Shown: piece after piece, positions 7,837 to 29,883 of the stretch | Numbering within the stretch: the first letter of the stretch is position 1 | How the letters are laid out: each line of letters begins with the position of its first letter | Virus record (IMG/VR): IMGVR_UViG_3300036859_000557 | Location: 1-30,580 of that record | Source of the DNA: a virus | DNA length: 30,580 nt | Reading direction: 5' to 3' (one strand) | Notes under the pieces: model-generated | What the model was told of the DNA's origin: nothing | Databases searched by the model: none | Seen by the model: only the letters and a program-made list of their open reading frames with translations | Program-made: the position numbers and the translations under genes

Positions 7837-7892
7837 GCGTGCTGCGCCTGGAGGCAGTGCGGGCAGATGGGCGCGCGAGGGTGGGGCTGTGA
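7833..7892 (+). CDS. Tiny ORF between nuclease and methyltransferase fragment (19 aa)
   Basis: MSVLRLEAVRADGRARVGL is linked by ATGA and GTGA overlaps to both neighbours. It may be only a coupling relic left by deletion of the front of the methyltransferase gene. Confidence 0.25.
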   Translation: MSVLRLEAVRADGRARVGL

Positions 7893-8119
7893 GTCAACCA
7901 GAGAAGAACGGCCATCCATGTCCCAAGCCACTGAAGGCGTGGCGACGTTTACTCAACAACATCTCTCAGCCTGAGCAGACTGTCCTCGATCCCTTCATGG
8001 GCTCTGGCACAACTCTACGTACAGCGAAGGACTTAGGGCGCAAGGCTATCGGCATCGAGATCGAGGAACGCTACTGCGAGATCGCGGCGAAGCGTCTGGC
8101 GCAGGACGTACTGCTATGA
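7889..8119 (+). pseudogene. DNA methyltransferase C-terminal fragment (76 aa)
   Basis: The protein matches the C-terminal part of amino-group DNA methyltransferases: HPCPKPLKAWRRLL, then the S-adenosylmethionine motif LDPFMGSGTTLRTAKDLGRK and IGIEIEERYCEIAAKRL. The catalytic DPPY-type motif, which lies upstream in this order of motifs, is absent, and I do not see it in the 50 bases before. The start GTG 7889 is joined to the tiny upstream ORF by GTGA. Most likely a deletion remnant, although a stand-alone SAM-binding domain cannot be excluded. It opens the cassette run leading to the transporter and DpdA-like genes. Confidence 0.65.
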
Positions 8120-8391: not shown

Positions 8392-8924
8392 CCAGGCCCG
8401 TCTGCCTCGTCCCGTTTGTAGCTTATATTGGGACGGTCTACGGCGCTAACTGGGCGCTCAAGGAATTCGGCTTCATCCACATCGGCTTCGGCCTTACTGC
8501 TCCTGCTGGCGTTCTATTCGCTGGGCTCGCTTTCACATTCCGAGACCTGACACACGAAGCGCTGGGTCGTTGGTGGTGCATTGTTGCCATCCTCGTTGGT
8601 GCTGCCTTGTCCTACGTCCTAGCCGACGTGGGGCGGATCGCCGTTGCTTCGGCAATTGCCTTCAGTCTCTCCGAGTTAGCAGATTTGGTGGTATATGAGC
8701 CGCTGCGCCGCCGCCATTGGTTAGGCGCAGTGGCTATCTCTAATTTTGTCGGCCTAATAGTTGACTCTGCCTTATTTCTCTGGTTGGCCTTGGGCTCTCT
8801 GAACTTCATTGAGGGCCAGATTGTCGGCAAGGCATACATGACGGTGTTGGCAATAGCAGCGCTATGGGCATGGAGGAAGTGTGCAGTTCTATCTCGGAAC
8901 GCATCATCCGTCCTGGCTGAGTGA
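8388..8924 (+). CDS. VUT/YhhQ-type membrane transporter, probable 7-deazapurine precursor importer (178 aa)
   Basis: This is a multi-span membrane protein with VUT family features: YIGTVYGANWALKEFGF, LTAPAGVLFAGLAFTFRDLT (the conserved FRDL segment), then several hydrophobic spans and FSLSELADLVVYEPLRRRHW. Members such as YhhQ import queuosine precursors (preQ0/preQ1). I chose ATG 8388, which forms an ATGA overlap with the upstream gene; the open frame before it belongs to that gene. It overlaps the DpdA-like gene by 44 bases, so the two are probably coupled. Import of a modified base for DNA is inferred from this pairing. Confidence 0.75.
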   Translation: MTRPVCLVPFVAYIGTVYGANWALKEFGFIHIGFGLTAPAGVLFAGLAFTFRDLTHEALGRWWCIVAILVGAALSYVLADVGRIAVASAIAFSLSELADLVVYEPLRRRHWLGAVAISNFVGLIVDSALFLWLALGSLNFIEGQIVGKAYMTVLAIAALWAWRKCAVLSRNASSVLAE

Positions 8925-9642
8925 AGTTGACGTGCCGCTTTTTGTTTCACGCCGCCGGTTGCAAGAGCGTCGAACCCTGCCGCGCGCTAGAGCACTGTGG
9001 GCTTTGGACTCCGGGGGATTCTCTGAATTGTTTATGTACGGTGAGTGGCGGCTATCACCTACTGAATACGTGATCCAAGTGCGCCGCTACCGAGAAGACA
9101 TCGGCGCCCTTGCTTGGGCGGCGCCGCAGGATTGGATGTGCGAACCGTGGCTAGTTCAGAAGACAGGACTATCAGTGGAGGAGCATCAGCAGCGGACAGT
9201 GTCCAACTTCCTTGACTTGAGAGGGAAGGCACCTGATCTGCCCATTATTCCCGTACTTCAGGGTTGGAGTCCAGATAGCTACTTAGAGTGCTGGCAGATG
9301 TACGACAAAGCAGGCGTCAATTTAAGCACTGCACCGTTAGTGGGATTAGGTAGTATGTGCCGGCGTCAGAACACGGCGGAAGCCACGAGGATCATTGCCT
9401 CACTTCTGCGTAAAGCGCCGCTCAATCTACATGCTTTCGGTTTCAAACTGAGTGGTCTAAGGCGTACAGCTCATCGCTTAGTATCAGCCGACTCTATGGC
9501 ATGGAGTTATCGAGCCCGGCGCTCTGCTCCCCTTGTCGGCTGCACCCACCGCAGTTGCGCCAATTGCCAACGTTGGGCATTGGCTTGGCGTGAAAGCGCC
9601 TTACTTGCGATTCTTTCTCCTAAGCAGGAGGTCTTGTTGTGA
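8881..9642 (+). CDS. DpdA/TGT-like transglycosylase for 7-deazapurine DNA modification (253 aa)
   Basis: This matches the short phage/actinobacterial DpdA-like family related to tRNA-guanine transglycosylase. Motifs are WALDSGGFSEL (43-47, the TGT DSGGF signature), WAAPQDWMCEPW (~79-90), PVLQGW (124-129), PLVGLGSMCRR, HAFGFKL and SADSMAWSYRAR, where the Asp is a candidate nucleophile. Cys 221, 226 and 229 (CTHRSCANC) would hold zinc. DpdA exchanges guanine in DNA for preQ0-type bases, protecting phage DNA from restriction. GTG 8881 has GGAGG four to five bases upstream, inside the transporter gene. Synthesis genes for the base are absent from the window, which fits scavenging. Confidence 0.75.
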   Translation: MQFYLGTHHPSWLSEVDVPLFVSRRRLQERRTLPRARALWALDSGGFSELFMYGEWRLSPTEYVIQVRRYREDIGALAWAAPQDWMCEPWLVQKTGLSVEEHQQRTVSNFLDLRGKAPDLPIIPVLQGWSPDSYLECWQMYDKAGVNLSTAPLVGLGSMCRRQNTAEATRIIASLLRKAPLNLHAFGFKLSGLRRTAHRLVSADSMAWSYRARRSAPLVGCTHRSCANCQRWALAWRESALLAILSPKQEVLL

Positions 9643-16452: not shown

Positions 16453-16537
16453 GAAAATACGGCTCGGCTTCCTCGGCTTTATCTGGGCCTTTGCGTTCAC
16501 AATCTGGACGATCAATCTAATCATTTACCTGCTGTGA
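16442..16537 (+). CDS. Membrane peptide (31 aa) before the large terminase
   Basis: MIIKKIRLGFLGFIWAFAFT followed by IWTINLIIYLL is one long membrane span with a basic N-terminus. I prefer GTG 16442 (GGTGAGG upstream, short overlap with the previous gene) to ATG 16352, which would overlap that gene by 100 bases. It overlaps the terminase start by four bases. Confidence 0.5.
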   Translation: MIIKKIRLGFLGFIWAFAFTIWTINLIIYLL

Positions 16538-18153
16538 CAACCCCGTCGCAGACCTTAACCTCCCAGTCTGCTCCTCCCTCGGTACTGACGCCGCAGCGCA
16601 CGCGGATCATTGCTGAGGAGTTACTGACTGAGGTTGGCGTGCGGCTGGACGGCGCCCTGTTTCGGGAGGCGTGCCTGGCGGAGCACTCGGAGCAGATCGT
16701 TACCGGCGGCGTGCGTGCTGGAAAGTCAACGGAGGGGGCGAGCGCGATCCTGCGGGATGTGGGCAAGCACCTGGTGCGCGGGACTTATACGAGCCTGTTG
16801 TACTGGATAATCGGGCCGGATTATGCGCAGACGCGCGAGGAGTTCCGCTATTTGCAGGAGTGGTTCAAGGTGTTTGCGACGGGGCTGGAGGAGGTGGTGT
16901 TCGAGCGGACGAGCATTCCTCACGAGGGACCGCGGGCGCTGGTGATGAGAATGCTGAACGCTCAGCGGCAGACGGTGACGGTTCAGGTGGATACGAAGTC
17001 GGCCGGGCACATAGAGAGACTCGGGACAGTCGCGCCGAACGGAATATTGGTGGTGGAAGCAGGACAGTGTGCTGGCACGCGGGAAGACGGCATACGCCGG
17101 ATATGCCTTGAAAGAGCCGCGGAGAAGGGTGCATGGGTCAAGTATACGGGAACGCTGGAGAACGACGAGCAGAAGCCAATCTGGGCCTGGTACTCGGAGC
17201 TGGCGGAGGAGTGGAAGGACAACCCGACCGCCTCTCATGCGGCCTACTCGCTGCCTTCCTGGGAGAACGTGGCGATTTACGGCAGTTGTAAGGAGCAGAT
17301 CGAAAATGACCCGGCACTCGCGCAATTTTGTCCCGATGACGCCCACGGCACAGGTCACAGCGGCTGGCTTCACCCATCTATCGTTCGAGCTAGAACTGAA
17401 TTACCACCTGATGTGTTCGACCGCCGTTTCGCCGGCAAGCCCACTGGGTTACAGAGCGTCGTTTATCCTCAGCTCAGATACCGGGAGCAGCTCGAACAAC
17501 CGCTCTTGAGGGCAATGCCGCAGGATTTAAGGTGGGTCGATGCGACCGGCGGTATCGATTACGGCACGGTCCATCCCACGGCGCTGGTGGTCATCACCTG
17601 GACGCCGCTAGAGGGGCCGATAGCGCAGAACGCACCCAAAGACATCGGCTGGGTGAGGGAGGTCTGGTTCAATGACGGCGAGCAGGCAGGCAACACAGAA
17701 TACCTTAACCTTAACCGTAGCCGACTTGAACGGAAATATCGTGTACGTATATGGGGGGTTGACCCTAACGAAAGATTCCTTGCACGAAGCGATCCAACAA
17801 CTGGAATCCGCCATCTCCAAAGTGCTGACGCACTTAATGTTTCAGGATCGCAACGTTCGCGTGACTATCGAATTGGACTCACCGGCACCAGACTAGACTC
17901 CTGCCTGCTGCTCTTCGATAAGAATGGGCCTGGCGTGCCTGAGTTGTACGAGGAGCAAAAGCGTGTCCACTATTACAAGAACCAGCTCGGTCAGCTCGTG
18001 CTCAGGCGGGAGAAGGACGACCGCACCGCCGCTGAGGAGAACGCGGTCGAGGTCAAGGACGGCACCCGGCGGCTCGTGCCGCCCCAGCCCGGCAGGATCA
18101 CAATTAGTAACAGCGCCCGCCGGCGAAGTCGGGCCGTCAGGAGGGTGGCGTGA
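16534..18153 (+). CDS. terL: Terminase large subunit (539 aa)
   Basis: This is the ATPase-nuclease motor that packages and cuts phage DNA. The Walker A is TGGVRAGKST (57-66), Walker B ILVVEA (171-176), and the motor coupling region is VKYTGTLEN. The RNase H-like nuclease has GGIDYGTVHPTALVV (Asp 342) and WGVDPNERFLA (Asp 410), then GVPELYEEQKRVHY and a disordered basic tail. Length is normal. GTG 16534 makes a GTGA overlap with the membrane peptide. Residues 380-455 are encoded with unusually AT-ending codons, where another frame holds a candidate overlapping gene. Confidence 0.9.
   Translation: MTTPSQTLTSQSAPPSVLTPQRTRIIAEELLTEVGVRLDGALFREACLAEHSEQIVTGGVRAGKSTEGASAILRDVGKHLVRGTYTSLLYWIIGPDYAQTREEFRYLQEWFKVFATGLEEVVFERTSIPHEGPRALVMRMLNAQRQTVTVQVDTKSAGHIERLGTVAPNGILVVEAGQCAGTREDGIRRICLERAAEKGAWVKYTGTLENDEQKPIWAWYSELAEEWKDNPTASHAAYSLPSWENVAIYGSCKEQIENDPALAQFCPDDAHGTGHSGWLHPSIVRARTELPPDVFDRRFAGKPTGLQSVVYPQLRYREQLEQPLLRAMPQDLRWVDATGGIDYGTVHPTALVVITWTPLEGPIAQNAPKDIGWVREVWFNDGEQAGNTEYLNLNRSRLERKYRVRIWGVDPNERFLARSDPTTGIRHLQSADALNVSGSQRSRDYRIGLTGTRLDSCLLLFDKNGPGVPELYEEQKRVHYYKNQLGQLVLRREKDDRTAAEENAVEVKDGTRRLVPPQPGRITISNSARRRSRAVRRVA
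17672..17896 (+). CDS. Candidate overlapping gene inside terL (74 aa, +1 frame)
   Basis: The ORF starts at ATG 17672 with GGGAGG about nine bases upstream. It reads as a plausible small protein: strands (TLTLTVADLNGNIVYVYGG), an amphipathic helix (KDSLHEAIQQLESAISKVL) and a final strand (RNVRVTIELD). By hand count, G or C at third positions is about 60% in this frame but only about a third in the terminase frame over the same bases, the reverse of the rest of terL. That is what dual coding would give. Terminase motifs run unbroken through it, so it is not a frameshift. Function unknown. Confidence 0.4.
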   Translation: MTASRQATQNTLTLTVADLNGNIVYVYGGLTLTKDSLHEAIQQLESAISKVLTHLMFQDRNVRVTIELDSPAPD

Positions 18154-18344
18154 CGTATGTCCGCCCGCGTCTTGAATCCTGGGTCGAGGAGACCGAACGC
18201 AAGGTGCGCCTGATCATCGACCACTACCCCCGCTGCCAGCGATGCGCCAAGGTCATCCTTGGTTCCGCCGCCCGCCCCTGGTCCCAGACTTGCCGCCACT
18301 GCGGCAGCCTGAACGCCACGATGGAGGAAGTCGTAGTAAGCTAA
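18150..18344 (+). CDS. Small zinc-ribbon protein (64 aa)
   Basis: CQRCAKVIL and CRHCGSLN give a CxxC...CxxC ribbon after a helical N-terminus (WVEETERKVRLIIDHYP). CAGGAGGG upstream and a GTGA overlap with terL fix GTG 18150. It is placed between large terminase and portal; function unknown. Confidence 0.65.
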   Translation: MTYVRPRLESWVEETERKVRLIIDHYPRCQRCAKVILGSAARPWSQTCRHCGSLNATMEEVVVS

Positions 18345-29001: not shown

Positions 29002-29883
29002 ATGCCAGCAGGGGAAACCCTATCAAGTACCCTCGGTGATGCCCTGCCAGAGATGGTGATCGAGGCACGTACCGTCGCCGAGTACGCAGGCTCCTGGGAA
29101 CGCACCTGCACGGTCAAGCGTCAACAAGAAGGCACCGGCCTTGCCTGGACGCAGTTCCAGATCGCCCAGATCGAGGCTCAGGACATCGGCGAGTCGCAGG
29201 ACAACCGCAACTACCAGCAGTTTGCCGGCACGTTGCTCAGTTCCGAGCCAGTGATGTCGCAGGTGATCATCAAGGTCACCGACCGCACCTACCGCAAGGC
29301 GGCAAAGGTCGTCACGCAAGAGTTCGGCAAGGCGGCCGGCCGCGCGATGGAGCGCAAGAAGGACGAGGATTACCTCTCCTTGTTCTCCACCTTCTCGACC
29401 ACCGCGAGCCCTGGTTCCGGCAATCCGCTCAGTCATGGCCATATCGCCGCTGCGGTCTCCAACGCCATGTCCAACGTCACCGAGCCCGGCATGACTGCCG
29501 CCAGCACGACGCTGCACGGCTTCCAGATTTACGACCTACAACTGGAGATACTGGCGCCGGTCGGCACCTACCAGGTGCAGGGCATGACCGAGGAAGTCTA
29601 CCGGCGCGGTTGGCGGGGCACGGTAGCGGGCTCCAACGTGTTCGAGGACGGCAACATCGGCATCGTCTCGAACAACGCCCGCGGAGCAACCCATCTCAAG
29701 GAAGGCGTCTTCGCCATCATGGCCATGACGCTCAAGACGGAAAGAGACCGCGACATCTATTTCGGCGGCGGTGCCGATGTCGTGTCGATGGTCGATGAGT
29801 ACAGCTTCGCCGAGAACACGTCGCGTGGTACGCAGGTCTTCGCGTACCAGCATCTCAGCGACGCCGTGGCTCCGGCCAGCTAG
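29002..29883 (+). CDS. Major capsid protein (293 aa)
   Basis: Position after the scaffold, length and composition fit an HK97-fold major capsid protein. There is an N-terminal arm (LGDALPEMVIEARTVAEYAG), an E-loop-like polar stretch (IGESQDNRNYQQFAGTLLSS), a spine helix (VTQEFGKAAGRAMERKKDED), and late beta/P-domain elements (GVFAIMAMTLKTERDRDIYF). GGAAGGA before ATG 29002 is a strong ribosome site, as expected for the most abundant protein. I judge it from context and pattern; no diagnostic short motif exists for this fold. Confidence 0.75.
   Translation: MPAGETLSSTLGDALPEMVIEARTVAEYAGSWERTCTVKRQQEGTGLAWTQFQIAQIEAQDIGESQDNRNYQQFAGTLLSSEPVMSQVIIKVTDRTYRKAAKVVTQEFGKAAGRAMERKKDEDYLSLFSTFSTTASPGSGNPLSHGHIAAAVSNAMSNVTEPGMTAASTTLHGFQIYDLQLEILAPVGTYQVQGMTEEVYRRGWRGTVAGSNVFEDGNIGIVSNNARGATHLKEGVFAIMAMTLKTERDRDIYFGGGADVVSMVDEYSFAENTSRGTQVFAYQHLSDAVAPAS

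Follow-up and report, generated by a model that had tools for sequence, protein, structure and literature searches.

Background

Viral genes overprinted out of frame on other genes include Rz1, which lies within Rz in phage lambda, and E, which lies within D in phiX174. Large terminase genes offer a related case, gene 17 of T4, which contains internal in-frame starts. Annotation programs overlook genes that lie out of frame inside core phage genes. The candidate described here is a 74-codon ORF in the +1 frame of the large terminase gene (terL) of a viral record of 30,580 bases (IMG/VR IMGVR_UViG_3300036859_000557), which was analysed over its whole length and is referred to below as the window. 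Like Rz1 and E, it is a same-strand, shifted-frame ORF nested in an essential gene, with its own start and no homologues elsewhere. It differs from them in that the host gene is terL, its expression is putative and the product is predicted to fold. Moreover, codon usage here has ceased to be genome-like in the ancestral frame as well as in the new one. With T4 gene 17 it shares internal initiation in a large terminase gene, putative in the present case, but the T4 products are in the terminase frame whereas the candidate ORF is out of frame.

Overlapping (overprinted) viral genes have been reviewed (PMC8227390). Spurious ORFs provide a second point of comparison: 17 of 131 AntiFam sequences of fewer than 100 residues (about 13%) exceed a pLDDT of 70, and the AntiFam models above pLDDT 80 are single helices (PMC9710616). 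The candidate resembles the AntiFam ORFs in being short, in lacking homologues and in overlapping a real gene, a setting in which moderate pLDDT values are possible; it differs from them in its mixed alpha/beta model and non-random codon order.

The terminase gene and the candidate reading frame

The gene at positions 16534-18153 (+ strand) starts with GTG and encodes 539 amino acids, with an ATPase domain and an RNase H-like nuclease domain. It matches the terminase large subunit family phrog_2 (PHROG, E 1.5e-7). A Walker A motif, GGVRAGKS, occupies residues 58-65, and three aspartates invariant in the alignments follow in the same frame: catalytic Asp 342 of motif I (GIDYG, 17557-17559), catalytic Asp 410 of motif II (WGVDP, 17761-17763), which lies inside the ORF span, and Asp 496 (18019-18021), probably the third catalytic residue. 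Judged by these motifs, the gene is a large terminase gene. The motifs are intact across the span, as the preliminary description had maintained, the motif II aspartate (VDP) being in frame and aligned with relatives. Compensating frameshifts in terL were considered and ruled out, since the terL frame keeps motif II and aligned flanks throughout. Between terL and the presumed portal gene lies a small Cys-rich, zinc-ribbon-like ORF of 64 amino acids (18150-18344), whose GTG start overlaps the terL stop and which is preceded by an SD-like AGGAGG.

The candidate ORF runs from ATG to TAG at 17672-17896 (+ strand), +1 relative to terL, exactly as first reported. The accompanying ribosome site exists as well: a Shine-Dalgarno-like GGGAGGT (17657-17663) ends 8 nt before the ATG. 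The window has 381 ATGs, of which less than 1% are preceded by a match of 6 or more; two others with such a match begin ORFs regarded as real genes. This rarity was downgraded as support once it was conditioned on the terminase protein, because GGGAGGT also encodes the conserved terL residues R-E-V and the conserved stretch W-V-R-E-V-W-F-N-D makes an ATG with a match of 5 or more rather likely (P = 0.15). The probability of some start with an SD nearby, given the same residues, is 0.47. The site is thus largely forced by terminase residues and carries little weight.

The openness of the frame depends on the reference chosen. Other +1 runs in terL reach 164 and 85 codons (run list: 164, 85, 79), and when the terL codons are permuted, 65% of trials contain at least one ORF of 74 amino acids or more. 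With the terL residues of the span itself held fixed, the probability of an open frame is 0.0024 with the codon usage found outside it, 0.0003-0.004 under any plain third-base bias and 0.085 with the codons of the span. In the first two cases openness is unlikely because eleven junctions can make stops, leucine being CTT at five of them. Among 80 alternative-frame runs in the window, 7, the candidate included, have a P of 0.005 or less.

Codon composition over the span

The low terminase-frame GC3 noted at the outset was confirmed. GC1/GC2/GC3 of terL is 0.63/0.48/0.73 before the span, 0.63/0.49/0.38 over codons 380-455 and 0.67/0.44/0.83 after it. The dip covers codons 391-450 (17704-17883, + strand), where GC3 is 0.27-0.40 per 15 codons. 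Within it leucine is CTT in 5 of 7 cases (2 of 41 in the rest of terL) and arginine CGT in 5 of 11 (3 of 41). Scored against each gene's own codon usage, this is the most extreme 60-codon GC3 dip among 115 ORFs of the window and related records (z -7.4); its centre lies on the ORF. The companion claim, that GC3 in the ORF frame is high and opposite to the rest of terL, does not stand: the third position of the ORF is the first position of terL, so that its GC content of 0.63 in the span is the terL norm (0.63 and 0.67 outside) and provides no evidence.

A dip of this kind may have arisen independently of a second gene, and there is a substantial possibility, somewhat under an even chance, that the span is a 180-bp terL tract with foreign or drifted codon usage in which an untranslated ORF is open by chance. 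Homologous exchange with a divergent phage could produce such a patch, as could relaxed codon bias in a variable loop. The runner-up dip (L002:14244-14945, z -6.3), from a related phage, shows that a sharp dip can occur without dual coding, all other frames there being interrupted by stops; terL itself contains a second, weaker dip around codons 241-315 (z -3.3). The start with its SD-like site, expected from terL residues, and the probability of 0.085 for an open frame with local codons likewise speak for this explanation. On the other hand, the amino acid composition lacks the shift expected for a GC-poor donor: the terL residues in the span include 11 arginines and 1 lysine, with a GARP fraction of 0.34 against 0.31 in the rest; they remain typical of a GC-rich phage, a point against an origin in an AT-rich genome.

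That a nucleic-acid element (promoter, terminator, structured RNA or repeat) lowers GC3 is scarcely credible. The span contains no promoter-like or terminator-like site and no Rfam match, only two inverted-repeat pairs were found, both short, and the RNA folding z is -1.0.

Codon usage was compared in both frames. Within the span the terL frame correlates with genome usage at r 0.04 and the ORF at r 0.21; real-frame windows give 0.57 (sd 0.13) and other +1 windows 0.10, 18% of the latter matching genome usage as well as the ORF or better. According to the criterion of Pavesi, a tendency for telling the older frame and not a strict definition, codon usage stays closer to that of the genome in the ancestral frame than in the new one (PMC8227390); here the terL frame fits worse than the ORF frame, which is opposite to the pattern that overprinting usually leaves. 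Since usage is un-genome-like in both frames and the terL frame is not the closer one, the whole patch is atypical, in favour of foreign or drifted codon usage.

Codon order and predicted fold

In the codon-order test, synonymous terL codons were shuffled within the span, so that the terminase protein and the codon set are kept and only the placement of +1 residues varies. The helical hydrophobic moment of the +1 peptide in an 18-residue window gives p values of 0.0005, 0.0002 and 0.0096 on three scales, with a metric of the author's choice, picked after the natural-looking peptide and the fold model were known. Weaker signals are seen for 14-residue helices (p 0.01-0.09) and for strands (p 0.007-0.09), and a binary hydrophobic/polar pattern score gives p 0.04. 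Moment combined with helix propensity reaches z 4.6-4.7, and codon-order z values overall are 3.7-4.7. The candidate ranks first of 91 runs in the window and first of 388 runs in 117 genes; the test is well calibrated across control runs (sd about 1.0), and after correction for about 90 runs p is about 0.03. Only the +1 frame, of the five alternative frames of the span, carries the amphipathicity signal; an antisense gene was accordingly rejected, the minus frames having no comparable codon-order signal. The synonymous sites of terL thus carry protein-like information in the +1 frame. The likelihood ratio is modest, only about 5-15, because real 74-residue blocks seldom reach such values (z > 3 in 1-2% and z > 3.9 in 0.2%). 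This result counts against a chance ORF in an atypical patch, since the amphipathicity (z about 4-4.6) arises from codon order with the same codons kept.

The AlphaFold2 model obtained from the single sequence is beta-beta-alpha-beta, with strands at residues 10-18 and 23-32, a helix at 37-56 and a strand at 62-69 (pLDDT 72.3, pTM 0.52). For a single control, a 75-codon +1 ORF of the capsid gene selected for ranking second in the codon-order test, the model had pLDDT 57.8, pTM 0.13 and no secondary structure. The natural-looking fold outline of the preliminary description gains support in so far as the model is far better than this control, which also speaks against a chance ORF. The look of the peptide is nevertheless partly a by-product: terL position 3 is ORF position 2, so low terL GC3 produces a natural-looking +1 peptide by arithmetic. 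The folded part, residues 10-69 (17699-17878), coincides with the GC3 dip, a match that is partly circular because the low GC3 itself gives the peptide a normal composition. A structure search with the ORF model returned no match at an E of 0.001 or less in the PDB or among viral structures.

Relatives of terL and of the +1 peptide

The nearest terL found, in record G009, is 37% identical and the others 22-28%; the six distant relatives compared in the +1 frame are 24-37% identical in terL. No closer terL, within about 40% identity, was found among IMG/VR and GTDB contigs with terL, portal and capsid queries and alignments, or with terL as query among phage records and the genomes of one phylum, 395 in number. 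The capsid-like protein (29002-29883) has counterparts of 57-71% identity in several IMG/VR contigs, yet terL identity to them does not exceed 37%. On this comparison of the same records the packaging module is mosaic, a further point for exchange as the source of an atypical patch. The 74-residue peptide has no homologue in phages, plasmids, 12 related records or the 395 genomes. In five of the six distant relatives a stop interrupts the aligned +1 stretch; in the sixth (G003) it is open but would encode an unrelated R/S-rich peptide. At 24-37% identity this indicates only that the ORF is not ancient.

In the comparison with G009, the 46 residues after motif II lack significant similarity (z 0.5), against z 9.3 and 8.4 for the flanks. 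An illegitimate insertion or replacement could account for this gap, if the stretch after motif II were a fragment of another gene whose native frame is +1 and terL tolerated the in-frame junk. A weak local match of the +1 peptide to the C-termini of class III aminotransferases would agree with such an origin (NCBIfam E 8e-4 over 41 residues, far below the cut-off; PDB E 1.2); none of ten codon-permuted versions of the peptide produces it. Local and weak, it was nonetheless treated as a chance helix-motif match, and aminotransferase homology was not adopted. The same 46 residues are about equally dissimilar between other distant terLs (z 1.0 for the G009-G001 pair), the spacing of terL is kept, the dip begins upstream of the clearly homologous RVRIWGVDP, and codon usage in the +1 frame is unlike that of a real gene of this genome. 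An insertion is therefore improbable. Given this gap in similarity, the ORF covers motif II together with the part of the nuclease domain that is conserved least, a stretch in which overprinting would be tolerable.

A possible overprinted gene

An overprinted small gene at 17672-17896 is a credible but unproven reading, with a probability a little below one half. Dual coding, which had been offered as the explanation of the pattern, gains from the fold model against its control and from codon order, while ORF-frame GC3 and the ribosome site weigh little. It best unites the dip, the codon order and the fold model, at near even odds. The odds are no better because close relatives are lacking, codon usage is atypical in both frames, one ORF was picked out of many and dips also occur where there is no ORF. 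The fuller proposal, that the +1 frame of the terL nuclease domain has given rise de novo to a folded alpha/beta microprotein, under constraint strong enough to rewrite terminase codon usage, is put forward tentatively. Translation of the ORF, selection on it and any function are what we infer from these observations.

If the ORF is an overprinted gene, a ribosome on the terL message would initiate internally at GGGAGGT...ATG (17657-17674) and read the +1 frame. The product would be a soluble protein of 74 residues, a beta-beta-alpha-beta domain preceded by a short, floppy N-terminus, and translation of terL through this DNA would preserve its nuclease motifs. The second frame would be of recent origin, around and after motif II and largely in the poorly conserved stretch. 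Selection on it may have shifted terL third positions off genome-preferred codons, leucine to CTT for example, thereby avoiding +1 stops. Nothing points to a specific activity of the protein; its role would most likely be that of a late accessory protein, made with packaging and head genes. Should this hold, a folded protein was born inside a packaging nuclease gene, and single-genome codon-order tests can flag overprinted genes where relatives do not exist. Should it not, the locus serves as a worked example: a local drop in GC3 can lend a shifted frame the look of a protein.

Other features of the window and of a related record

In the ORF of the related phage that has the runner-up dip (L002:14244-14945), GC3 falls sharply in the C-terminal part, which contains a C2H2-like zinc-finger sequence; the drop looks like a domain exchange. 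In the window, a DpdA-like gene (8881-9642; Pfam DpdA E 1e-94, phrog_1279) lies near a short DNA methylase-like ORF (7889-8119; N6_N4_Mtase E 1e-23, C-terminal part only), and together they suggest 7-deazaguanine or methyl modification of the phage DNA. An alanine-rich 12/24-bp tandem array at 2417-2828, with about 37 copies of the 12-bp unit, sits inside a long ORF (1668-2879) and is open on both strands.
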